From: an uncultured Selenomonadales bacterium
GTDB taxonomy: Bacteria > Bacillota_C > Negativicutes > Selenomonadales > Selenomonadaceae
Assembly: GCA_946407175.1 (NCBI GenBank)
Contig: CAMJNB010000062.1
Location: 1-7,209 of the forward strand
Length of the DNA: 7,209 nucleotides
Reading direction: 5' to 3'
Part shown: piece by piece, positions 1-7,209 of the stretch
How positions within the stretch are numbered: the stretch's first letter is position 1
Layout: the number at the start of each line of letters is the position of its first letter
Position numbers and translations under genes: made by a program
Notes under the pieces: model-generated
Databases searched by the model: none
What the model saw: only the letters and a program-made list of their open reading frames with translations
What the model was told of the DNA's origin: nothing

Positions 1-154
1 TCGCGTCTTTGACTTCCTGCGCTTTCGCCAAGTTACCGGCAAAGTTTATTGCAATTTTTGCGCCGAGACTTGACAGCTTTAAGGCAATGGCACGACCTAT
101 TCCGCGTGACGCGCCTGTTACCAGCGCAGACTTTCCTGCCAAACTTTTTTCCAA
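1..154 (-). CDS. fabG: 3-oxoacyl-ACP reductase FabG-like, N-terminal part
   Basis: Only the first 51 codons are present; the gene continues past the left edge. The protein opens with the NAD(P)-binding Rossmann motif of short-chain dehydrogenases, TGASRGIG at residues 13-20, followed by helix residues [13 protein letters not shown] and then INFAGN at 36-41. The last stretch resembles the N-Y-S/A-G-N segment of FabG, the NADPH-dependent enzyme that reduces 3-oxoacyl-ACP in fatty acid elongation in the cytosol. The catalytic Ser-Tyr-Lys lies outside the window, so another short-chain dehydrogenase cannot be excluded. The chosen start is TTG at 154, eight bases after GGAGG (163-167). An in-frame ATG at 184 has no SD and lies inside the spacer of the predicted promoter, so it is unlikely. 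The gene is co-directional with the ribosomal cluster but separated by 152 nt and seems to have its own promoter. Confidence 0.82.
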
Positions 155-162
155 ACTTTTCG

Positions 163-167
163 CCTCC
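163..167 (-). promoter_or_regulatory. Shine-Dalgarno of fabG-like gene
   Basis: GGAGG on the minus strand ends eight bases before TTG 154. It decides the TTG start over the upstream in-frame ATG at 184, which has no SD. It lies just downstream of the predicted transcription start, so the leader would be very short (about 14 nt). Confidence 0.75.
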
Positions 168-174
168 GCGCAAA

Positions 175-203
175 AATATAGCATAAACTATTCAACTTGT
201 CCA
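175..203 (-). promoter_or_regulatory. Sigma-70/SigA-type promoter for fabG-like gene
   Basis: On the minus strand a -35 box TGGACA (203-198, five of six matches to TTGACA) is followed by exactly 17 bases and a -10 box TATATT (180-175, five of six matches to TATAAT). TGC directly precedes the -10 and forms an extended -10 motif. Transcription would begin near 168, immediately before the GGAGG at 163-167. This is a match to the known consensus; the activity is inferred. Confidence 0.65.
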
Positions 204-228
204 CTATTTCATAGAAATTGAAAATTTT

Positions 229-280
229 CTAAAAAATAGCTTTTAATTCTTTCACGAATTTTTCAAAGTTATTTTTTTAG
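229..280 (-). terminator. Extended AT-rich hairpin, candidate terminator after rplQ
   Basis: The segments 229-243 (plus strand CTAAAAAATAGCTTT) and 265-280 (AAAGTTATTTTTTTAG) are inverted repeats with one bulged base and one imperfect pair. A second small stem, AATTC (245-249) with GAATT (256-260), lies in the loop. On the minus strand the 3' arm contains a run of six T, so transcription out of rplQ would meet a hairpin and a U tract within the arm. It is poor in G and C, so it is weaker than a classical intrinsic terminator. It begins 26 nt past the rplQ stop and ends 26 nt before the predicted fabG promoter, a sensible place to end the operon. It could also work from the other side, as the other arm has seven T. 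Confidence 0.4.
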
Positions 281-284
281 CTTT

Positions 285-317
285 CAAACTTAGTCGACAA
301 CCAAACTTAGTCCACAA
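285..317 (-). repeat. 17-nt tandem duplication across the rplQ stop codon
   Basis: The 11-base word CAAACTTAGTC (plus strand) occurs at 285-295 and again at 302-312, a period of 17. Including flanks, about 14 of 17 bases agree. The right copy contains the rplQ stop codon (307-309). A degenerate third relative, CAACTTGTCCAC, lies at 193-204 over the -35 box of the fabG promoter. A small slippage duplication is the simplest reading. Confidence 0.55.
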
Positions 318-648
318 GCTCCATCAAAACCATAGGAGCGGCATCACCGCGACGCGGACCGAGCTTTAAAATACGAGTGTAGCCGCCTTCACGCGAATTG
401 AACTTTTGCGGCATTTCTTCAAAAATTTTATGTACCACGACATCATTGCCGACCATTTGAATAGCCTGACGGCGAGCGCTTAAATCTCCGCGCTTTGCAA
501 GGGTAACCACTTTATCGGCGAATTTGCGAAGTTCCTTAGCCTTAGCTTCGGTAGTTTCAATTCGACCATAAGTGAAAAATACGGCGAGGAGAGATTTAAA
601 AAGAGCCTTGCGCGCGCCGCTGTTCCTGCCGAGTTTTCTATAACTCAT
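307..648 (-). CDS. rplQ: 50S ribosomal protein L17
   Basis: The 113-residue product is bL17, a large-subunit protein near the polypeptide exit region. It has the family's N-terminus [20 protein letters not shown], the conserved [18 protein letters not shown] block (residues 29-46), [12 protein letters not shown] (49-60) and the C-terminal signature [19 protein letters not shown] (88-106). It is slightly shorter than the roughly 120 residues usual in Bacillus because the segment around residues 68-85 is compact. The ATG at 648 is preceded by GAGGA (655-659) seven bases away, inside the 15-nt gap after rpoA, so the two are probably co-translated. It is the last gene of the alpha-operon half, and an AT-rich hairpin follows. 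Identity is certain from the signature blocks. Confidence 0.98.
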
Positions 649-663
649 TGCAATTCCTCACTT

Positions 664-1743
664 CTAAATATCAATATCGCTGTCAATATGCACGCTGGGC
701 TTAAGTGACAAGCCGATATCTTCAAGTTTATTTTTAACTTCGTCCAAAGATTTTCTGCCGAGATTGCGAACCTTCATCATATCTTCTTCGGTCTTGTTGA
801 CCAAATCGCCGACATAATCAATTCCCGCACGCTTAAGGCAGTTAAACGACCGCACCGAAAGATCCAAATCCTCAATCGTCATATCCAAAATTTTTGTAGC
901 CTTATCTTCCGGCGAAGCAGGCGCGTCCGTAGCCGCCGCTACCTCTGTCTGCGTATCTTCCTCAATAACCGGTTCATCTTCCACAAAACCTTGCATAGAC
1001 TGGAAAAGTTTCAAGCGATTTATCAAAATGTCCGCCGCTTTTGCAACTGCCTCGTCCGGCTTAACCGTGCCGTTTGTCCAAACTTCCAAAATCAGCTTGT
1101 CATAGTCCATTTCGTTGCCTACGCGCGTGTCTTGAACTTCGTAGTTTACGCGAAGAACCGGCGAAAAAATGGAGTCAATGGGAATGGTACCGATAACGTC
1201 ATCAGGCTTTTTATTTCTCTCCGCCTCGACGTAACCGAAATTCTTTTCAACTTTCATTTCCATTCTAAGCTGACCGTCGGCATTCAGTGTGGCAATGTGC
1301 AGATTGGGATTTACAACCTCAACATCGGCGTCACAAATGACATCTGCGCCGGTAATTTCTATGTCGGACTTTTCAGCGTGCCGCTTTTTGCGTGATTCGT
1401 CGGAGTCAATTCTGATTATGTAGGGAATTTCTTCCTCCGGATTTTCGGGATTGACGTGATTGGTGCCGAGAATTTTAAGATACAGTTGCTTGATATTCAA
1501 AACTATGTTCGTAATATCTTCGCGAACGCCGGGCAAAGTGGAAAATTCGTGCAGTACGCCGTCAATTTTTATTGAAGTGACCGCCGCGCCTTCCAATGAC
1601 GCCAAAAGCATACGGCGCAAACTGTTTCCGATCGTGTGACCGTAGCCGCGTTCCAAAGGTTCGCAGGAAAATTTGCCGTAGTCTGAACGAACTTCAATTG
1701 ATTCTATCTTCGGTTCAATTTTAGATTTTTCATTGTCTGCCAT
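664..1743 (-). CDS. rpoA: DNA-directed RNA polymerase subunit alpha
   Basis: This encodes a 359-residue alpha subunit, whose dimer nucleates assembly of RNA polymerase. The N-terminal domain shows YGKFSCEPLERGYGHTIGNS (residues 22-41), LRRMLLASLEGAAVTSI (42-58) and DGVLHEFSTLPGVREDI (61-77). The C-terminal domain (about 285-346), which contacts UP-element DNA and activators, shows DLSVRSFNCLKRAGI (294-308) and EEDMMKVRNLGRKSL (319-333). An acidic Ala-rich linker (about 250-284) joins them. The protein is longer than the 314 residues of Bacillus subtilis alpha: about 20 extra residues lie between roughly 93 and 130, and there is a short C-terminal tail (347-359). ATG 1743 is preferred over an in-frame GTG at 1764, because AAAGGGG (1755-1761) precedes the ATG whereas the GTG has no SD. 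The spacer after rpsD is 57 nt. Confidence 0.97.
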   Translation of the reverse strand: MADNEKSKIEPKIESIEVRSDYGKFSCEPLERGYGHTIGNSLRRMLLASLEGAAVTSIKIDGVLHEFSTLPGVREDITNIVLNIKQLYLKILGTNHVNPENPEEEIPYIIRIDSDESRKKRHAEKSDIEITGADVICDADVEVVNPNLHIATLNADGQLRMEMKVEKNFGYVEAERNKKPDDVIGTIPIDSIFSPVLRVNYEVQDTRVGNEMDYDKLILEVWTNGTVKPDEAVAKAADILINRLKLFQSMQGFVEDEPVIEEDTQTEVAAATDAPASPEDKATKILDMTIEDLDLSVRSFNCLKRAGIDYVGDLVNKTEEDMMKVRNLGRKSLDEVKNKLEDIGLSLKPSVHIDSDIDI

Positions 1744-1754
1744 TAAGAGTACTA

Positions 1755-1761
1755 CCCCTTT
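1755..1761 (-). promoter_or_regulatory. Shine-Dalgarno of rpoA
   Basis: AAAGGGG on the minus strand lies eleven bases before ATG 1743, slightly far but the only SD-like element in the spacer. It overlaps the beginning of the longer GTG-started frame (GTG at 1764), arguing that the 7-residue extension is not translated. Confidence 0.55.
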
Positions 1762-1800
1762 CACTACGCATTATAAATTACGCGCACTATTAGCAGACTG

Positions 1801-2394
1801 TTATCTTGAATATAATTCAACGATTGACTGTTCATTGACCGGCACGTCAATTTCTTCACGCGTAGGAAAGCGTACAACCGAGCCTTTAAGGTTAGCCTGA
1901 TCCGATTCAAGCCACGCAGGTGCACTCAAGGCGTTATTCGTCTCCTTAAGCATCTTGAAAATTTCTTTACTCTGACTTTTTTCGCATACTTCTACGACGT
2001 CGCCGGCTTTTATCAGCGCCGACGGGATATCTACGCGCTTGCCGTTCACCGTTATATGTCCGTGCGTTACGAATTGGCGCGCTTGACGGCGCGTATTTGA
2101 AAAACCCAGTCTGAATACCACGTTATCAAGGCGGCGTTCCAACAGTATCAACAGGTTTTCACCGGTTACGCCGGACATTTTACGTGCTTTTTCGTAGTAA
2201 TTGCGGAATTGACGCTCCAAGACGCCGTAAATAAATTTAGCCTTTTGCTTTTCTTTAAGCTGAATTGCGTATTCACTGATTTTACGCATTGTGCGATGCG
2301 CATTTCTTTTGGATTTGCGGCTACGTCCGATGAACGCAGGCTCTATTCCCAGTGCGCGGCAACGCTTTAAATCAGGTGTTCTGTCGATTGCCAT
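1801..2394 (-). CDS. rpsD: 30S ribosomal protein S4
   Basis: This 197-residue uS4 binds 16S rRNA early in small-subunit assembly. The N-terminal region ([15 protein letters not shown], residues 5-19) has one cysteine and lacks the four-Cys zinc site of some S4 proteins, so it is the zinc-free type. [22 protein letters not shown] (49-70) is the conserved middle block. The S4 RNA-binding domain begins at about residue 87, with [12 protein letters not shown] (87-98) and [21 protein letters not shown] (105-125). Two ATGs compete: ATG 2400 lies only two bases from the AGGAG, while ATG 2394 lies eight bases from it and gives the usual MAIDRTP start, so I chose 2394. In many bacteria S4 represses its own operon through a leader structure. 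Here the 77-nt spacer upstream is filled by a heptamer array instead, with no evidence of an S4-binding site. Confidence 0.97.
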
Positions 2395-2402
2395 TAACAT
2401 TT

Positions 2403-2407
2403 CTCCT
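2403..2407 (-). promoter_or_regulatory. Shine-Dalgarno of rpsD
   Basis: AGGAG on the minus strand lies two bases before ATG 2400 and eight before ATG 2394. The normal spacing selects ATG 2394. The heptamer array begins five bases upstream, at 2412. Confidence 0.8.
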
Positions 2408-2411
2408 TTTT

Positions 2412-2475
2412 TAGTTGCTAGTTACTAGTTGCTAGTTGATAGTTACTAGTTGCTAGCGATCTAGCTACTAATTAC
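2412..2475. repeat. Heptamer tandem array, TAGTTRC type (rpsK-rpsD spacer)
   Basis: On the plus strand six consecutive 7-nt units start at 2412, 2419, 2426, 2433, 2440 and 2447: TAGTTGC, TAGTTAC, TAGTTGC, TAGTTGA, TAGTTAC, TAGTTGC. Degenerate units continue through 2475 (TAGCGATC, TAGCTAC, TAATTAC), the last reaching into the rpsK stop codon (2472-2474). Unit junctions form CTAG, which is self-complementary; bases 2418-2456 fold symmetrically about 2437 with CTAG pairing to CTAG. The array fills nearly all the space between the rpsK stop and the rpsD SD. No ORF or promoter is visible in it. Confidence 0.9.
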
Positions 2476-2864
2476 ACTCTTCTGCGTTTGGGCGGACGGC
2501 ATCCATTGTGCGGAATGGGCGTCACGTCTTTAATCATATTGACTTCAAGCCCGGTAGCCTGCAGAGAACGAATTGCCGCCTCACGACCGGCGCCCGGTCC
2601 CTTTACATAAACTTCTACCTGCTTTAATCCGTGTTCCATTGCCGCCTTTGCCGCTACTTCCGCCGCCTGCTGAGCCGCAAACGGTGTACTTTTACGCGAT
2701 CCGCGAAAGCCTAAACCGCCCGCTGACGCCCATGACAAGGCATTTCCGCCTTTATCCGTTATCGTGACAATCGTGTTATTGAAAGTGGAGCTGATATGCG
2801 CCACGCCGTATTCTATATTCTTGCGGACTTTTTTCTTTGCACGAACTGTTCTTTTCGTTGCCAA
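2472..2864 (-). CDS. rpsK: 30S ribosomal protein S11
   Basis: This 130-residue uS11 lies on the platform of the small subunit near the mRNA exit and the Shine-Dalgarno helix. Conserved blocks are [18 protein letters not shown] (residues 20-37), [20 protein letters not shown] (44-63), [18 protein letters not shown] (85-102) and the terminal [17 protein letters not shown] (114-130). Length is normal. The start codon is TTG at 2864, the only one giving the expected MATKR start, with GGGAGG (2874-2879) nine bases upstream. The 93-nt spacer towards rpsM and the 77-nt spacer towards rpsD are both occupied by heptamer arrays, so this gene is bracketed by repeats. The coding sequence itself looks ordinary. 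Confidence 0.97.
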
Positions 2865-2873
2865 CTACTTAAT

Positions 2874-2879
2874 CCTCCC
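2874..2879 (-). promoter_or_regulatory. Shine-Dalgarno of rpsK
   Basis: GGGAGG on the minus strand lies nine bases before TTG 2864 and supports this non-ATG start. The repeat hairpin ends five bases upstream of it, at 2885, close enough that folding could influence ribosome access (inference). Confidence 0.8.
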
Positions 2880-2883
2880 TTTT

Positions 2884-2953
2884 TGAGCTTCGAGCTTCGA
2901 GCTTTGAGCTTTGAGAATAAAACTCTACGCTGTAAGCTCTAAGCTCCAAGCTT
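2884..2953. repeat. Palindromic heptamer array, YGAGCTT/YAAGCTY type (rpsM-rpsK spacer)
   Basis: Ten 7-nt registers run without a break from 2884 to 2953. The first four are TGAGCTT, CGAGCTT, CGAGCTT, TGAGCTT; the last three are TAAGCTC, TAAGCTC, CAAGCTT; the three in the middle are degenerate. The two halves are inverted: GAGCTT at 2892 and 2899 pair perfectly with AAGCTC at 2941 and 2934, GAGCTT at 2885 pairs with AAGCTT at 2948 (one G-T), and GAG 2913-2915 pairs with CTC 2923-2925. The loop is seven bases (2916-2922). Mismatched single bases fall exactly every seven positions. No T tract follows the hairpin on the coding strand, so it does not look like a terminator. Confidence 0.92.
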
Positions 2954-2957
2954 GCAC

Positions 2958-3329
2958 CTACTCTTTCTTCTTGCCTTGTACCAGCTTTTTCGGTCCTTTG
3001 CGCGTTCTCGCATTGTTTTTCGTGTTTTGTCCGCGTACCGGAAGTCCAAGTCTGTGGCGGCGTCCGCGATAGCAGCCAATATCTATGAGTCGCTTGATGT
3101 CCATCTGTATGTCGCGGCGAAGGTCTCCTTCTACCACGTACTTATGATCTATTACATCACGAAGTTTTACTACTTCGTCGTCCGTGAGGTCTTTTGACTT
3201 GGTATCGGGATTGATTCCCGTTTCCGCCAATATCTTTTTCGACGTCGACAACCCGATTCCAAAAATATACGTCAATGCGTATTCCATTCTTTTCTCACGC
3301 GGCAAATCTACACCGGCTATACGTGCCAT
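2958..3329 (-). CDS. rpsM: 30S ribosomal protein S13
   Basis: This 123-residue uS13 sits in the head of the small subunit and contacts the 50S subunit and P-site tRNA. It begins [19 protein letters not shown], has the helix-turn-helix segment [20 protein letters not shown] (residues 20-39), the [19 protein letters not shown] block (83-101) and the basic tail [13 protein letters not shown] that reaches toward tRNA. Length is typical. ATG 3329 is served by GAGGAGGTGA (3337-3346), the strongest SD in the window, ten bases from the start counted from GGAGG. It follows rpmJ after 25 nt and opens the rpsM-rpsK-rpsD-rpoA-rplQ block. The stop is TAG; the heptamer array ends four bases beyond it. Confidence 0.98.
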
Positions 3330-3336
3330 TAAATTT

Positions 3337-3346
3337 TCACCTCCTC
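3337..3346 (-). promoter_or_regulatory. Full-length Shine-Dalgarno of rpsM
   Basis: GAGGAGGTGA on the minus strand contains the full AGGAGGTGA complement of the 16S rRNA 3' end. It is the best match in the window and predicts strong, independent initiation at the first gene of the alpha-operon block. Confidence 0.85.
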
Positions 3347-3354
3347 AAAAAATT

Positions 3355-3468
3355 TTAACCTTGACGCTGTTTGTGTTTGGGATTTTCACAAATAACCATT
3401 ACGCGACCTTTGCGCTTAATAATTTTGCACTTGTCGCACATTTTTTTTACTGAAGGTCTGACTTTCAA
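3355..3468 (-). CDS. rpmJ: 50S ribosomal protein L36, zinc-binding form
   Basis: A 37-residue bL36, too small and with too unusual a start for simple ORF calling. The translation after the TTG start is [19 protein letters not shown] for residues 2-20, then [17 protein letters not shown] (21-37). It carries the zinc-ribbon ligands Cys11, Cys14, Cys27 and His32, so this is the Zn-containing (C+) type. Bacteria that also carry a Zn-free paralogue can switch under zinc limitation; no paralogue is visible here. The TTG at 3468 aligns exactly with the family's first Met and is preceded by AAGGAGG (3477-3483) at eight bases. It lies 20 nt after infA and 25 nt before rpsM, the usual infA-rpmJ-rpsM order. 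Confidence 0.97.
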
Positions 3469-3476
3469 AGTTACTG

Positions 3477-3483
3477 CCTCCTT
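3477..3483 (-). promoter_or_regulatory. Shine-Dalgarno of rpmJ
   Basis: AAGGAGG on the minus strand, eight bases before TTG 3468, fixes the non-ATG start of this very short gene. The next in-frame ATG (residue 10) would remove the conserved KVRPSVKK start. Confidence 0.85.
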
Positions 3484-3488
3484 TATTT

Positions 3489-3707
3489 TTATTTAAAGCG
3501 ATAAGTTATTCTGCCGCGCGTCAGATCGTACGGCGTAAGTTCGATAGTCACTTTGTCGCCGGGCAAAATGCGGATAAAGTTCATTCTGATCTTGCCGGAA
3601 ACGTGCGCCAACACTACGTGTCCGTTTTCAAGCTGGACTTGAAACATAGCATTGGGAAGAGCCTCAACCACTGTGCCTTCAACTTCGATTACGTCTTGCT
3701 TTGACAT
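3489..3707 (-). CDS. infA: Translation initiation factor IF-1
   Basis: This 72-residue protein is IF-1, which occupies the ribosomal A site during initiation and helps IF-2 and IF-3. It is a single OB-fold: [20 protein letters not shown] (residues 1-20), [20 protein letters not shown] (22-41), [20 protein letters not shown] (47-66) and the ITYRFK end. Length is exactly the family norm. ATG 3707 is preceded by GAGG (3717-3720) nine bases upstream, located between the adk stop (TGA at 3724-3726) and the start; the gap to adk is 16 nt. In many Firmicutes map, and sometimes a KOW-domain gene, lie between adk and infA; here neither is present. Confidence 0.98.
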
Positions 3708-3723
3708 ATGTCTATACCTCGAT

Positions 3724-4377
3724 TCAATTTTTCACCGAGAGCAAAACGTTTTCAAGTTCTTCGGTGACTTTATCAATAGCCTGCCTGCCGTCAATTTCAA
3801 CGTACAAGCCGACATTTTTGTAGTAGTCGATTAAAGGGCGCGTAGATTCTTCATAAACACTGAGACGCTTTGTCATAGTCTGTTCATTGTCGTCTGCACG
3901 CTGATAGAGTTGACCGCCGCATTTATCACACTCATCCTTCACCTTAGGAGCATTGAACTTTACGTGGTAGGTGGCGCCGCAATTCTTACAAATACGCCTG
4001 CCAACCGCACGTTCAATTAAATTTTCCGCCGGTACGTGAATGTTTAAAACCTTAGTCAACTTCAAATTTAAATCGCTTAAAATCTTTTCAAGAGCCTTAG
4101 CCTGCTCGACTGTACGCGGAAAGCCGTCCAAAATGAAACCGTTTTTGCAGTCATCTTTAGCCAATCTCTCACGCACAATACCTACAGTGACTTCGTCCGG
4201 CACCAATGTACCTGCATCCATACAAGCCTTAGCCTTTTTGCCGAGTTCGGTACCTTCCTTGACTGCCGCGCGGAACATATCGCCCGTTGCAATTTGCGGA
4301 ATTTTAAATTTTTCAACCAATTTGACCGCCTGCGTACCTTTTCCGGCGCCGGGAGGTCCCATTAATAAAATTTGCAT
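3724..4377 (-). CDS. adk: Adenylate kinase, zinc-LID type
   Basis: The 217-residue enzyme interconverts ATP + AMP and 2 ADP in the cytosol. The Walker A loop is GPPGAGKGT (residues 7-15); the AMP-binding region includes [10 protein letters not shown] (30-39) and DGFPRT (84-89). The LID (about 127-160) carries Cys130, Cys133, Cys150 and Cys153 in two CxxC pairs, so it is the long, zinc-binding form typical of Gram-positive bacteria. [16 protein letters not shown] (171-186) is the conserved C-terminal block. ATG 4377 is preceded by GGAGG (4385-4389) at seven bases. The 79-nt spacer upstream, after secY, is mostly a heptamer array. Placement between secY and infA is usual for Firmicutes. Confidence 0.98.
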
Positions 4378-4394
4378 TTCGTATCCTCCAATTT

Positions 4395-4458
4395 AGCTTA
4401 CAGCTGACAGCTTGCAGCTTACAGGATTCTAAAAGCTAAAAGCTGACAGCTACCAGCT
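4395..4458. repeat. Symmetric heptamer array, AGCTNNN type (secY-adk spacer)
   Basis: Plus-strand units AGCTTAC, AGCTGAC, AGCTTGC, AGCTTAC start at 4395, 4402, 4409 and 4416. After an interruption, AGCTAAA, AGCTGAC, AGCTACC and a final AGCT start at 4434, 4441, 4448 and 4455. The eight AGCT cores are arranged with mirror symmetry about 4426.5, so each can pair with its partner. AGCTG/CAGCT, CAGCTT/AAGCTG and AGCTT/AAGCT helices stack between 4402 and 4451, leaving a 12-base loop. The last core overlaps the secY stop codon (4457-4459) and the first lies six bases upstream of the adk SD. Nothing else is visible in this spacer. Confidence 0.9.
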
Positions 4459-5713
4459 ATTTCATAAAGCCTTCGTAGTGTCGCATAACGACCATTGATT
4501 CAATCTGTTTCATAGTGTGCAAGGCAACACTGACAACGATTAAAAGCGCCGTGCCGCCGAAGTAAACGCCTTGAATATGCGTCGCGCCGCCGATTAGTGT
4601 CGGCAGTACCGCGATGAACGATAAAAATATCGAACCTGCAAGCGTCAACCTCGTAAGCACTCTGTCTACATAATCCGCCGTAGGTTGACCGGGTCTTATA
4701 CCGGGTATGAAGGCGCCGTACTTTTTCAAATTGTCCGCCATATCGGGGATTTTCACCGTTACCGCCGTGTAAAAATAAGTAAAGAAGATTATCAGCACGA
4801 CGTACAAAAAGGTTTGAAGTGGCGTACCCCATTGCAAGTATGCGGCTACTTTTTGCACTTCCGGTATCTCTATAAATTGCACTATTGTTATCGGGAACAT
4901 CAGCACGCTGGATGCAAAGATAATCGGTATTACACCTGCTTGATTCACTTTCAGCGGTATGTGACTTGAATGTCCGCCGAATGCCCTTGAACCGGCAACA
5001 CGCTTGGCGTATGTTATCGGTATTCGCCTGTACGCCGCCTCAACGTAAATTACAAATACAATCATTGCTACCGCTATCACTGCAAATAGCAACACGCTGA
5101 AATAGCTGATTGTACCTGCTTTTAAGTAGCTGTAAATTGTACCTATATTCTGCGGCAATGCGGCTACTATACCTGCAAAAATTATCAGTGAAATGCCGTT
5201 TCCTACGCCCTGCGCCGTAATTTGTTCACCTATCCACATTAACAGCGTCGTTCCTGCCGTCAGCGTTATCGCTATGATTAGGATATTGACGGGACTTGGA
5301 TTCAGTATCGCCGCTTTTAAGCCGATTGACATACCTATTGCCTGTAAAAACGCCAATACTACTGTCAATTTCCGCGTCACGCGCGTAGATTTTTTATGTC
5401 CTTCCGCGCCTTCCTTTGACCATTGCTCCAAAGTCGGTATTACCACCGTCAGCAACTGCATTATGATTGACGCATTGATATATGGCGTGATACTCATTGC
5501 AAATATCGAAAATTTACTGAATGCGCCGCCTGAAAATAAATCAAGGAGCCCGAACAAACTTCCGTTATTGAAAAGCTGTTCAATCGCTGAAGGGTCGACG
5601 CCCGGTACCGGTATGTGCGTACCTAACCTGAATACCGCGAACATTATCAGCGTGAAAACTATCCTCTGCCTAAGTTCCGGTATCTTGAAAATGTTTGAAA
5701 GTGCGTCAAGCAC
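4457..5713 (-). CDS. secY: Protein translocase channel subunit SecY
   Basis: SecY (418 residues) forms the membrane channel that, with SecE, SecG and SecA, exports and inserts proteins. Hydrophobic stretches fit the ten-helix topology, the first near residues 17-30. Family blocks include PGVDPSAIEQLFN (37-49), LDLFSGGAFSKFSIFAMSIT (57-76), PYINASIIMQLLT (77-89), GEQITAQGVGNGISL (162-176), HIPLKVNQAGVIPIIFASS (251-269) and GAFIPGIRPGQPT (333-345). It ends MRHYEGFMK, as in many Firmicutes. The start is GTG at 5713, one base after the rplO stop. Its SD GAGGTGA (5720-5726) lies within the last rplO codons, so translation is probably coupled. The 79 nt downstream, before adk, are a repeat array. 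Length and order are normal. Confidence 0.98.
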   Translation of the reverse strand: MLDALSNIFKIPELRQRIVFTLIMFAVFRLGTHIPVPGVDPSAIEQLFNNGSLFGLLDLFSGGAFSKFSIFAMSITPYINASIIMQLLTVVIPTLEQWSKEGAEGHKKSTRVTRKLTVVLAFLQAIGMSIGLKAAILNPSPVNILIIAITLTAGTTLLMWIGEQITAQGVGNGISLIIFAGIVAALPQNIGTIYSYLKAGTISYFSVLLFAVIAVAMIVFVIYVEAAYRRIPITYAKRVAGSRAFGGHSSHIPLKVNQAGVIPIIFASSVLMFPITIVQFIEIPEVQKVAAYLQWGTPLQTFLYVVLIIFFTYFYTAVTVKIPDMADNLKKYGAFIPGIRPGQPTADYVDRVLTRLTLAGSIFLSFIAVLPTLIGGATHIQGVYFGGTALLIVVSVALHTMKQIESMVVMRHYEGFMK

Positions 5714-5714
5714 C

Positions 5715-6155
5715 TCAAATCACCTCAGCCGTGCCGCCGACAGCCTCAATTTTTTCCTTAGCGGACTTGCTGAACGCCTGCAATTTGACGGTAAGTTTTT
5801 TGGTAATTTCGCCCTTGCCCAAAACTTTGACGCCGTCAAGCACGTTTTTGAGTATGCCGACTTCAACTAAGGCAACTGCATCAACTACAGCACCGTCATC
5901 AAAGCGGTTAAGGGTCTCGACGTTGACTTCTGCAAACTTTTTAGCCCAAATATTTTTAAAGCCGCGCTTAGGCAGTCTGCGATAAATCGGCATTTGACCG
6001 CCTTCAAAGCCGGGACGAACGCCGCCGCCGCTACGAGCCTTTTGACCTTTGTGACCGCGACCGCAAGTCTTGCCTACGCCGCTACCAATGCCGCGACCGA
6101 CGCGAATTTCTTTTTTTCTGGCACCGTCTGCAGGTTTAAGAGTATGTAAATTCAT
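5715..6155 (-). CDS. rplO: 50S ribosomal protein L15
   Basis: uL15, 146 residues, binds 23S rRNA late in 50S assembly. The extended, Gly/Arg-rich N-terminal arm is clear: [38 protein letters not shown] (21-38), [17 protein letters not shown] (40-56) and [10 protein letters not shown] (57-66). The C-terminal domain ends with the signature region [19 protein letters not shown] (111-129) and [13 protein letters not shown]. The ATG at 6155 follows the rpmD stop after three bases, and its SD AGGAGGG (6163-6169) lies inside the rpmD coding end. Its own TGA is one base from the secY GTG. These contacts indicate a translationally coupled rpmD-rplO-secY string. Confidence 0.98.
5720..5726 (-). promoter_or_regulatory. 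Shine-Dalgarno of secY inside rplO
   Basis: GAGGTGA on the minus strand is six bases before GTG 5713 and overlaps the last rplO codons (rplO stop TGA 5715-5717). It supports the GTG start and coupled translation. Confidence 0.75.
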
Positions 6156-6158
6156 AAA

Positions 6159-6407
6159 TCAGCCCTCCTGCGGTTTAACAACTTTTTCGGCAATGGCGGG
6201 ACGCTTGGCAACTTCGACTTTCTTTGCTACGTCGGCAACTTCTTCAACTGCTACAAGGTGCTTTACCTTAAAAATCTGACCGCGAATGGCGGGAGTGTCA
6301 GGAAGTACGGCAGTTGAATTGACCTTGCGAAGACCGAGAGAACGAACCGTCTTGCGTTGAGTATCGGGGCGGCTGATAAGACTTCTTTTGAGTGTAACTT
6401 TTAACAT
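6159..6407 (-). CDS. rpmD: 50S ribosomal protein L30 with C-terminal extension
   Basis: Residues 1-57 are a complete uL30: [20 protein letters not shown], then [20 protein letters not shown] (21-40) and [17 protein letters not shown] (41-57). Bacterial L30 normally ends near residue 60. Here the frame runs on to 82 with a low-complexity, Ala/Val/Lys-rich tail ([20 protein letters not shown] at 58-77, then KPQEG). The frame is open, the stop is TGA at 6159-6161 and the next gene starts three bases later, so the tail is not an obvious frameshift artefact. L30 lies on the 50S surface, where a tail could be tolerated. ATG 6407 is eight bases from GGAGG (6416-6420), whose first G is also the last base of the rpsE stop codon TAG, which favours reinitiation. 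Confidence 0.95.
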
Positions 6408-6419
6408 ATCAGCGACCTC

Positions 6420-6932
6420 CTACACAAAAAGTTCGGCGACGGATTTGCCGCGCAGGTTGGCAACAACATCGGCACGTTTTAACATTTTCAAACCTTCGAG
6501 AGTGGCACGAACCATATTGTTGGGGTTAGAAGAGCCGAGAGATTTGGTTAAAATGTCATGAACGCCTGCAAGTTCAAGAACGGCACGAGCGGGACCGCCT
6601 GCAATGACGCCGGTACCTTTAGATGCGGGGCGTAACATAACACGACCTGCGCCGAAAATACCAACAACGCCGTGAGGGATTGAACGATCCTTTAAAGCGA
6701 CGTCGATAAGATTCTTTTTAGCGTCATCAACGCCTTTGCGAATGGCTTCGGGGACTTCAGCAGCCTTGCCGAGACCGACACCGACTTTGCCGTTGCGATT
6801 GCCGACGACAACGAGAGCGCTGAAAGAGAAACGGCGACCGCCTTTAACGACTTTGGCGACGCGATTTATAAAAACGACTTTTTCTTCAAATTCGGGAGTT
6901 TCGTTAGATTCAATTTTTTCATTTCTAGGCAC
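6420..6932 (-). CDS. rpsE: 30S ribosomal protein S5
   Basis: uS5 (170 residues) sits near the decoding centre and mRNA entry and affects fidelity. The N-terminal RNA-binding domain shows [20 protein letters not shown] (residues 16-35) and [20 protein letters not shown] (36-55). The C-terminal domain shows [19 protein letters not shown] (85-103), [19 protein letters not shown] (106-124) and [19 protein letters not shown] (126-144). Length is normal. The start is GTG at 6932, eight bases after AAGGAG (6941-6946), which directly follows the rplR stop (TAA 6948-6950). The 15-nt gap and this arrangement fit one transcript with rplR. Confidence 0.98.
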
Positions 6933-6940
6933 TGTATCAA

Positions 6941-6946
6941 CTCCTT
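6941..6946 (-). promoter_or_regulatory. Shine-Dalgarno of rpsE
   Basis: AAGGAG on the minus strand, eight bases before GTG 6932, begins one base after the rplR stop codon and supports the GTG start. Confidence 0.75.
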
Positions 6947-6947
6947 T

Positions 6948-7209
6948 TTAAAATTTTAAGCCTGCCTCACGAGCGGCATCGGCAAGAGCGGCAATGCGAC
7001 CGTGATAAATGTAGCCGCCGCGATCGAAAACAACTTCGGTAATGCCTTTATCGAGAGCTTTTTTGGCAATATTGGCGCCGACTTTCTTTGCACCGGCAAT
7101 GTTGGAACCGTTAGAGTCAAAATCTTTTTCAACGGAACTGGCGGCGGTTAAGGTAACGCCTTTTTCATCGTCAATAATCTGCGCGTAGATGTGAGAAAGA
7201 CTGCGGAAG
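6948..7209 (-). CDS. rplR: 50S ribosomal protein L18, C-terminal part
   Basis: The last 86 codons are present; the 5' end lies beyond the right edge. uL18 binds 5S rRNA and helps place it in the central protuberance. The visible part reads [20 protein letters not shown], continues through [19 protein letters not shown], and ends with the family signature [20 protein letters not shown] and AREAGLKF before TAA at 6948-6950. The missing part should hold the basic N-terminus (about 30-35 residues in this family). Its place directly before rpsE is the standard spc order. Confidence 0.97.

Follow-up and report, generated by a model that had tools for sequence, protein, structure and literature searches.

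Tandem repeats with a unit of seven nucleotides (nt) are known from several bacteria. The short tandemly repeated repetitive (STRR) sequences of cyanobacteria are dispersed over the genome as short tandem 7-nt units, arranged simply head to tail and lacking inverted arms. Heptameric TAACTGA direct repeats occur in marine Beggiatoaceae, Cyanobacteria and Bacteroidetes; as portrayed in excerpts of that account, they are intergenic repeats of one fixed unit, situated mostly just upstream of start codons, although some lie over the upstream stop codon and stops in all three frames were noted, with one inverted set among 170 and no predicted structure for the repeat alone (MacGregor 2015, PMC4679880). 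The heptamers GGGAATC and GGGGA(C/T)T of Xanthomonas and Nostoc, of the G-quadruplex type, are described in parts of the source as over-represented between genes, nearer to the 5' neighbouring open reading frame (ORF), 90% of them lying between the same ORFs in two xanthomonads (PMC4692102). As far as these parts go, both accounts leave the cause of heptamer repeats open (PMC4679880, PMC4692102). Repetitive extragenic palindromes (REPs) tagged with GTAG are, in the relevant parts of their description, dispersed hairpins near genes whose TAG is often the stop of an ORF (PMC3733652). Here, period-7 arrays are described that fill the long spacers of a ribosomal gene cluster in an uncultured Selenomonadales bacterium (assembly GCA_946407175.1, contig CAMJNB010000062.1, positions 1 to 7,209, hereafter the window) and that recur in related genomes. 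Their gene-end, fold-back form, with TAG heptads followed by CTA heptads, is a poorly explained variant of the heptamer repeats known elsewhere; no description of such arrays in Selenomonadaceae, or of the TAG/CTA order, was found in the titles and abstract openings of the literature matches listed. We consider it reasonably probable that these spacers hold dispersed short inserts of about 40-110 nt, placed between a stop codon and the next Shine-Dalgarno (SD) sequence, spread by copying and tolerated at gene ends.

The cluster lies on the minus strand and comprises rpl and rps genes, secY, adk, infA, rpmJ, rpsM, rpsK, rpsD, rpoA and rplQ, the names having been assigned from translations of the ORFs. 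Three spacers only exceed 60 nt within it: rpsK-rpsD (2395-2471, 77 nt), rpsM-rpsK (2865-2957, 93 nt) and secY-adk (4378-4456, 79 nt), followed in length by rpsD-rpoA (57 nt). Matches at a lag of 7 were counted at 43 of 70, 53 of 86 and 42 of 72 positions in the three, respectively, and in each case 0 of 2000 dinucleotide shuffles reached the observed count. No lag-7 excess was found in the rpsD-rpoA spacer (13/50) or in the 122-nt end stretch 185-306 (35/115). Over the whole window, lag 7 yielded five segments with a score of at least 12 and all other lags from 4 to 13 yielded none; Tandem Repeats Finder recovered the same three arrays. The claim of the earlier note that exactly the three long spacers are filled by heptamer arrays is thus borne out, as is its statement that the arrays run from the upstream stop, overlapped in two cases (rpsK and secY), to close to the downstream SD, from which they are separated by 3-5 nt as judged by eye (Table 1).

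That note had also described the arrays as tandem repeats of period 7. The period stands, but the plain head-to-tail arrangement does not: all three arrays carry two inverted arms and are imperfect hairpins, which had been overlooked. The arms measure 30 nt in rpsM-rpsK (80% complementary), 27 nt in secY-adk (78%) and 18 nt in rpsK-rpsD (78%). Sense-strand folding gave, in the same order, -32.5, -34.1 and -19.9 kcal/mol (z-scores of -3.6, -4.2 and -3.5), and 0, 1 and 0 of 200 shuffles folded as well. A long stem with a mismatch about every 7 nt is predicted for both strands. Read by eye, the sense 5' arm of secY-adk consists of the heptads TAGCTGG, TAGCTGT, CAGCTTT and TAGCTTT and a final TAG.

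Table 1 Period-7 arrays of the window and the gene signals at their edges
Feature	Position	Strand	Remarks
Period-7 array/hairpin filling rpsK-rpsD	2412..2475	-	TAG heptads in sense 5' part, CTA heptads in 3' part (by eye); overlaps rpsK stop
Period-7 array/hairpin filling rpsM-rpsK	2884..2953	-	Arms 2886-2915 and 2923-2952; sense 5' arm with AG every 7 nt (by eye)
Period-7 array/hairpin filling secY-adk	4394..4459	-	Arms 4394-4420 and 4433-4459; overlaps secY stop
rpsK stop codon TAA	2472..2474	-	Within array edge
rpsM stop codon TAG	2958..2960	-	Array 4 nt away
secY stop codon TAG	4457..4459	-	Forms the first unit of the array
rpsD SD-like AAGGAG	2403..2408	-	Array 3 nt away (by eye)
rpsK SD-like GGGAGG	2874..2879	-	Array 4 nt away (by eye)
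adk SD-like GGAGG	4385..4389	-	Array 4-5 nt away (by eye)

Genome-wide counts refer to genomes of relatives (G001 and following), not to the genome of the window. Part of each of 16 such genomes was scanned, an array being a self-match at a given lag with a segment score of at least 16; counts are given as noncoding + coding. Lag-7 arrays were found in G001 (65+5 in 382 kb), G005 (30+5 in 251 kb), G003 (17+1 in 267 kb), G004 (6+2 in 290 kb), G020 (3+2 in 125 kb) and G029 (14+0 in 43 kb, a density that is biased because its contigs were picked by a match to the AGYT pattern), and further in G010 (6+1), G024 (5+0), G019 (3+3), G009 (2+0) and G037 (1+1). None were found in the scanned parts of G006 (174 kb), G021, G011, G036 and G008, nor in 74 loci of mostly Bacilli (L007-L080, 1.5 Mb). 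In the 1.31 Mb scanned of G001, G003, G004, G005 and G020 combined, 121 of the lag-7 arrays are noncoding. Between 4 and 13, every lag but 7 gave 0 or 1 array per genome and class, lag 8 in G005 excepted (25+1 arrays in 251 kb, unit ATCGATCY, or RGATCGAT). Among longer lags, some multiples of 7 or 3 (14, 15, 18 and 21) added a few arrays. A strictly universal period of 7 was rejected in view of the 25 noncoding octamer arrays of G005. This octamer family (loci L089-L108) often starts at a TAG stop, and some of its members fold back. Weaker lag-7 periodicity was present in 32 of 187 array-free co-directional spacers, the corresponding numbers for lags 5, 6, 8, 9, 10 and 11 being 0, 1, 5, 0, 1 and 2. 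A BLAST search of two array strings against plasmids gave no match and is uninformative, as the low-complexity filter may be the reason.

The earlier note had proposed a family of 7-nt repeats in noncoding gaps, constrained in unit length and in a core AGYTNNN. The related genomes agree with the first part and not with the core. AGYTNNN fits the window and one large group of units, is absent from many others (AAGAATT, ACTACTC, AACAGGG, AATAGTG) and was rejected as the common motif. The AGYT pattern was present in 25 of 60 relatives, with 287 matches in G001, 754 in G005, 1 in G004 and 0 in G006, counts that include overlapping matches and the palindromic AGCT on both strands. Units were compared with shuffled units over 71 distinct genome-unit combinations, leaving out arrays lying for more than 50% within predicted ORFs, as was also done for the stop, inverted-partner and unit-sharing counts. 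TAG/CTA was the most enriched trinucleotide (46 of 71 units, 20.8 expected, z 6.6), followed by AGC/GCT (19 units, 6.2 expected, z 6.1), and TAA/TTA was enriched as well (40 units, 25.8 expected, z 3.9); ATC, CCA, ATA, ATG and GAC were most depleted. TAACTGA and its reverse complement are not among the unit families of the five genomes, nor among the ten commonest of ten more.

The TAG anchor was also examined with a pattern of five TAG heptads and its reversed control, which gave 1857 versus 20 matches in G001, 331 versus 0 in G002, 276 versus 15 in G029, 243 versus 0 in G005, 83 versus 0 in G003, 83 versus 1 in G004, 59 versus 1 in G009 and 27 versus 0 in G011, overlapping matches being included in these counts as well. 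No match was found in G006, G044 and three Bacilli/Clostridia genomes. In a phylum-wide draw the pattern occurred in 52 of 398 genomes and the control in 34 (hand count), in G156 and G206 at about equal frequency; since the control is common across the phylum too, these phylum-wide counts test the TAG preference only weakly. A polarity became clear only after runs had been paired. Runs of at least three TAG heptads were followed by CTA heptads within 60 nt in 36 cases (26 of them from G001), with gaps of 1-51 nt, and the reverse order was found once (p 6e-10). Sorted by gene context, with all ORFs below 450 nt excluded, the 37 pairs comprise 26 TAG-CTA and 1 CTA-TAG in co-directional spacers, 4 convergent, 3 divergent and 3 at contig edges. 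The divergent and convergent pairs keep the same order, and the polarity is therefore not simply imposed by the adjacent upstream stop. TAA heptads do not display this polarity (1 in that order, 6 reversed). In G151, which lies outside the 60 relatives, TAG on the plus strand followed by TAG on the minus strand, the same fold-back order, was seen at at least two places (C10:282-398 and C11:30641-30754).

TAG-tagged hairpins at gene ends recall the GTAG REPs, and it might be supposed that the arrays are REP-like elements moved by a Y1 transposase (REP-associated tyrosine transposase, RAYT) that recognises them. GTAG REPs are likewise gene-end palindromes whose termini often give the flanking ORF its TAG stop; in these parts of their description, however, GTAG is unpaired and at one end only, and the palindromes form defined families associated with RAYTs (PMC3733652). 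In the arrays, by contrast, TAG recurs in every unit, with TAG or CTA every 7 nt on both arms. Miniature inverted-repeat transposable elements (MITEs) have terminal inverted repeats conserved across copies; in the arrays, the heptads of one genome diverge beyond TAG. A search for Y1_Tnp in 60 genomes, G005 not among them, found it in 22, mostly in the array-poor part of the list. Array-bearing G001, G003, G004, G019, G020, G024 and G029 had no match, and the only match in G002 was partial and close to the start of a contig. Y1_Tnp matches thus do not track the arrays, a Y1 transposase as mover is unsupported, and this explanation is very improbable.

The position of the arrays was analyzed in five genomes. 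Position, stop-usage and folding counts pool lag-7 and lag-8 arrays, and ORFs below 450 nt containing an array were excluded from them and from the three-frame-stop counts. A lag-7 or lag-8 array is held by 113 of 580 spacers of 30-600 nt, namely by 85 of 419 co-directional, 16 of 73 convergent and 12 of 88 divergent ones, with a density of 1.49 per kb in co-directional versus 0.66 per kb in divergent spacers; 9 of 141 array clusters lie within ORFs. The array edges that face a gene 3' end (n=119) overlap it in 41 cases and lie less than 10 nt away in 27, with a median distance of 4 nt. The edges that face ORF starts have a median distance of 25 nt, the longest start having been taken; genes are mechanical ORFs, which makes their starts unreliable. 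The arrays are thus nearer to gene 3' ends than to ORF starts, unlike the TAACTGA repeats, from which they also differ in their many units, often inverted arms and TAG/CTA order. TAG is the stop codon of 39 of the 69 genes that end at an array and of 156 of 992 other genes. Among co-directional spacers 60-250 nt long, each of the three frames meets a stop within 48 nt past the gene stop in 49 of 72 spacers with a lag-7 array and in 98 of 336 without (p 2e-9, odds ratio 5.2). A sense-strand stop excess alone was not significant in the upstream half of co-directional spacers (36 versus 24, p 0.16). For comparison, 250 kb of plasmid A of Trichormus variabilis yielded 3 lag-7 arrays, all of which adjoin or overlap the 3' end of an ORF. 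Their density is about 1.2 per 100 kb versus about 18 in G001, the whole plasmid has no match to the five-TAG pattern, and no fold-back was seen by eye in the three arrays.

Each spacer might expand its own heptamer from a chance seed by purely local polymerase slippage. The 7-nt period itself fits such a process, heptamers are common in other bacteria, and a polymerase footprint favouring 7 nt is an idea of Mrazek and colleagues, as cited in passages of two later papers (PMC4679880, PMC4692102). Slippage does not account for inverted arms in a fixed order. Moreover, widely separated loci of the same genome have units in common much more often than chance would give: with one array kept per 2 kb, the two units are identical in 12.5% of the pairs within genomes (n=1428), in 2.0% of those between genomes (n=5593) and in 0.4% of shuffled pairs (n=4000). 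Local slippage alone is therefore insufficient. This sharing, like the polarity, had escaped the earlier note.

Gain and replacement of arrays can be followed among close relatives. The genomes G002 and G003 are sisters, with 91-96% identity over long alignments. In the spacer near L158:1850 the stop region and the 3' end are common to both, and the 5' arm is built of TAGTNAG in G002 versus AATTAAG in G003. At site A (L153:9600-9687), G003 carries about 67 extra nt with AATGCGT/AATTCGT units, an insert that is absent from the four readable relatives G001, G002, G004 and G005 (G007 gave a weak partial match only). In these four, gene 1 ends in ...KKN* and overlaps gene 2, which starts with MSKK in G001, G002 and G004, whereas G005 has ATC at the start codon position. 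In G003 the array supplies the TAA stop of gene 1, whose new end is ...GMQDSMRNS*, and a new SD-like GCAGGAG precedes gene 2. No clear target site duplication was found at site A. Site B (L153:3974-4090) has three unrelated fillings in G003, G004 and G005 and is shorter, with no filling by eye, in G001 and G002. Such gain and rewriting sets the arrays apart from the Xanthomonas heptamers. Fragments akin to the site A insert, for the most part to its 5' arm, were found at at least 40 places in G003 (query included) and at least 41 in G002, 40 candidates having been scored per genome. Another dispersed repeat of about 110-250 nt, containing GCGGCATTT/AAATGCCGC as well as a CTTTTTCTTTGCGCCAAAGAAAAAG hairpin, was noticed at L158:10978-11090, L274 and L275; it has many matches in G002 and sometimes lies inside a heptad array.

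The ribosomal spacers themselves were compared across relatives, as the earlier note had suggested, and were found to carry other heptamers or none. Five Selenomonadaceae/Selenomonadales bins are closest to the window by RpoA (78-91%); going by their titles, one comes from reindeer, two from goat rumen and one from water buffalo reticulum, and the fifth names no source. Their units are TAGTNAG in L001, CAGTGAT in L004, TAGCCGG and CTACAAG in L005, and AATGCGT and CCCTAAA in both L002 and L003. In some of them rpsD-rpoA and rpoA-rplQ are also period-7, and some spacers of the five, for example rpsM-rpsK in L005, are short and hold no array. The rpsK-rpsD spacer measures 80-88 nt in four of the five and 40 nt, with two units, in L004; rpsM-rpsK differs between L002 and L003 by 21 nt, or three units, as slippage would also give. 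Loci in both orientations were read (35/35, three genomes being present twice). At the 27 more distant ones (L194-L220, RpoA identity of 56-66% where RpoA is present), rpsK-rpsD is 17-23 nt long in 24, consisting of stop and SD only; the 45 nt read for L220 arises because its alignment ended at residue 122/130. Only L206 (92 nt) and L212 (85 nt) have fold-backs there, of differing units, between the rpsK-rpsD TAA and TTTGGAGG. Both inserts have TAA on both flanks (by eye), but the arrays contain TAA themselves. The rpsM-rpsK spacer is more variable, with heptad arrays also in distant L196, L205, L206 and L207. Read by eye, the L206 and L212 rpsK-rpsD inserts have a common left start, AAGCAAT, and the L207 rpsM-rpsK insert has ends TTTCAAT...ATTGAAA, either of which may be an element end or a target duplication.

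Whole fold-backs of 85-92 nt where most distant loci have only a stop and an SD, like the complete site A element where four relatives have no such sequence, are not expected from slippage of a local seed. Purely local slippage is weakened and, as an explanation of the arrays, distinctly unlikely. The same comparison bears on the suggestion that the arrays are intrinsic terminators or assembly artefacts, which is the most improbable of those considered. One terminator-like site does lie within the secY-adk array (4458-4441) and repeats can be mishandled in metagenome assemblies, but the window has 2 terminator-like sites versus 2.9 (sd 1.6) in shuffles, hence no excess. The arrays lie inside a ribosomal operon and lead into an SD, and the same architecture recurs in the bins from reindeer, goat and water buffalo.

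A hairpin between stop and SD could also be a functional intercistronic RNA, kept to tune coupling, polarity or mRNA decay in the operon. The strong folding in the window agrees with this, as does the higher density of arrays in co-directional than in divergent spacers. Strong folding (z below -3) was predicted for 27 of 71 array spacers versus 22 of 110 others, the latter a random draw from 155. The excess is small at z below -2 (35/71 versus 39/110), however, and no Rfam match was found up to E 1. Furthermore, a spacer filled in one species is empty or filled with unrelated sequence in the next, a perfect 8-bp pairing seen in rpsK-rpsD of L002 is disrupted in L003 (by eye), and the few convergent and divergent fold-backs keep the same polarity. 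Such a function is unlikely to be the reason for the arrays; a role as mRNA hairpin is possible but secondary. Universal hairpins were rejected on these z below -2 counts and on the finding of an ungapped inverted partner (score of at least 12) in 41 of 121 arrays (control mean 8.4), a count that can score one hairpin twice. Like STRR, the arrays are short tandem heptamers dispersed over the genome; as to the head-to-tail arrangement of STRR, an inverted partner is present in 3/3 window arrays and 41/121 elsewhere, and the remainder have none at this threshold. A common central AAAATTTT core was rejected as well (20 of 71 array spacers versus 108 of 155 others).

Under the reading of dispersed inserts at gene ends, the commonest form has a 5' arm of TAG heptads (YAGNNNN), a loop and a 3' arm of CTA heptads; other families are anchored on TAA or AGCT. 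Inserts would spread by DNA copying between loci and would then be expanded in steps of 7 nt and rewritten, by slippage or by fold-back template switching. They may survive mainly at gene ends: as 7 is not a multiple of 3, a stop-bearing heptad would soon stop every frame, and an insert overlapping a gene end would become the new terminus of that gene.

Several observations weigh against this reading. Many arrays show a single arm, an inverted partner having been found for 41 of 121, and the arms agree little beyond the TAG anchor (1.81 of 4 positions within the same hairpin versus 1.36 of 4 between hairpins). Outside array-rich genomes the TAG preference is modest. The excess of TAG stops follows in part from the inclusion of the stop in the arrays concerned, and the depletion of ATG/CAT in units (10 versus 20.8) says little about start codons because ATC, CCA and ATA are depleted more. 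In rpsM-rpsK of the window the first stop in the third frame comes only at 89 nt. No mobilising gene was found in a search aimed at PF01797 only. The matches listed for the site A insert include no full-length donor, the best other match covering 52/74 nt at 85%, and long dispersed copies (at least 50 nt, at least 92%) are few: G001 has 3 rows, of which two refer to one place, G005 has 3 and G003 has none. By eye, 21 copies of one family have no common ends; GGAATGCTT directly precedes 3 of 10 G003 copies of that family (by eye).

Two other features of the window were noted. Just past the rplQ stop, at 285-317, lie two near-identical 17-nt copies (CAAACTTAGTCSACAA). An ORF on the minus strand at 2-184 has a TGASRGIG motif, which we take to resemble that of a short-chain dehydrogenase.

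The TAG anchor and the 36:1 order form a concrete constraint for any mechanism. A more far-reaching proposal, which must be regarded as doubtful, is that of an element class defined by length and anchor instead of sequence, its DNA being written or copied in 7-nt steps keyed on TAG, first as TAG and then as CTA heptads. If true, one family of elements would give way to another at gene ends with the format unchanged, the class would stand as a separate category, and a dedicated copying activity with a 7-nt register would be implied, for example a reverse transcriptase, a primase or a fold-back polymerase. The arrays are dense in some genomes and turn over fast between genomes with 91-96% identity over long alignments, so that their birth and loss are traceable at orthologous sites. 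They also alter gene ends: the insert at site A gave gene 1 a new C-terminus and parted it from its neighbour. The arrays thus offer a simple route for the evolution of operon spacers and protein ends.

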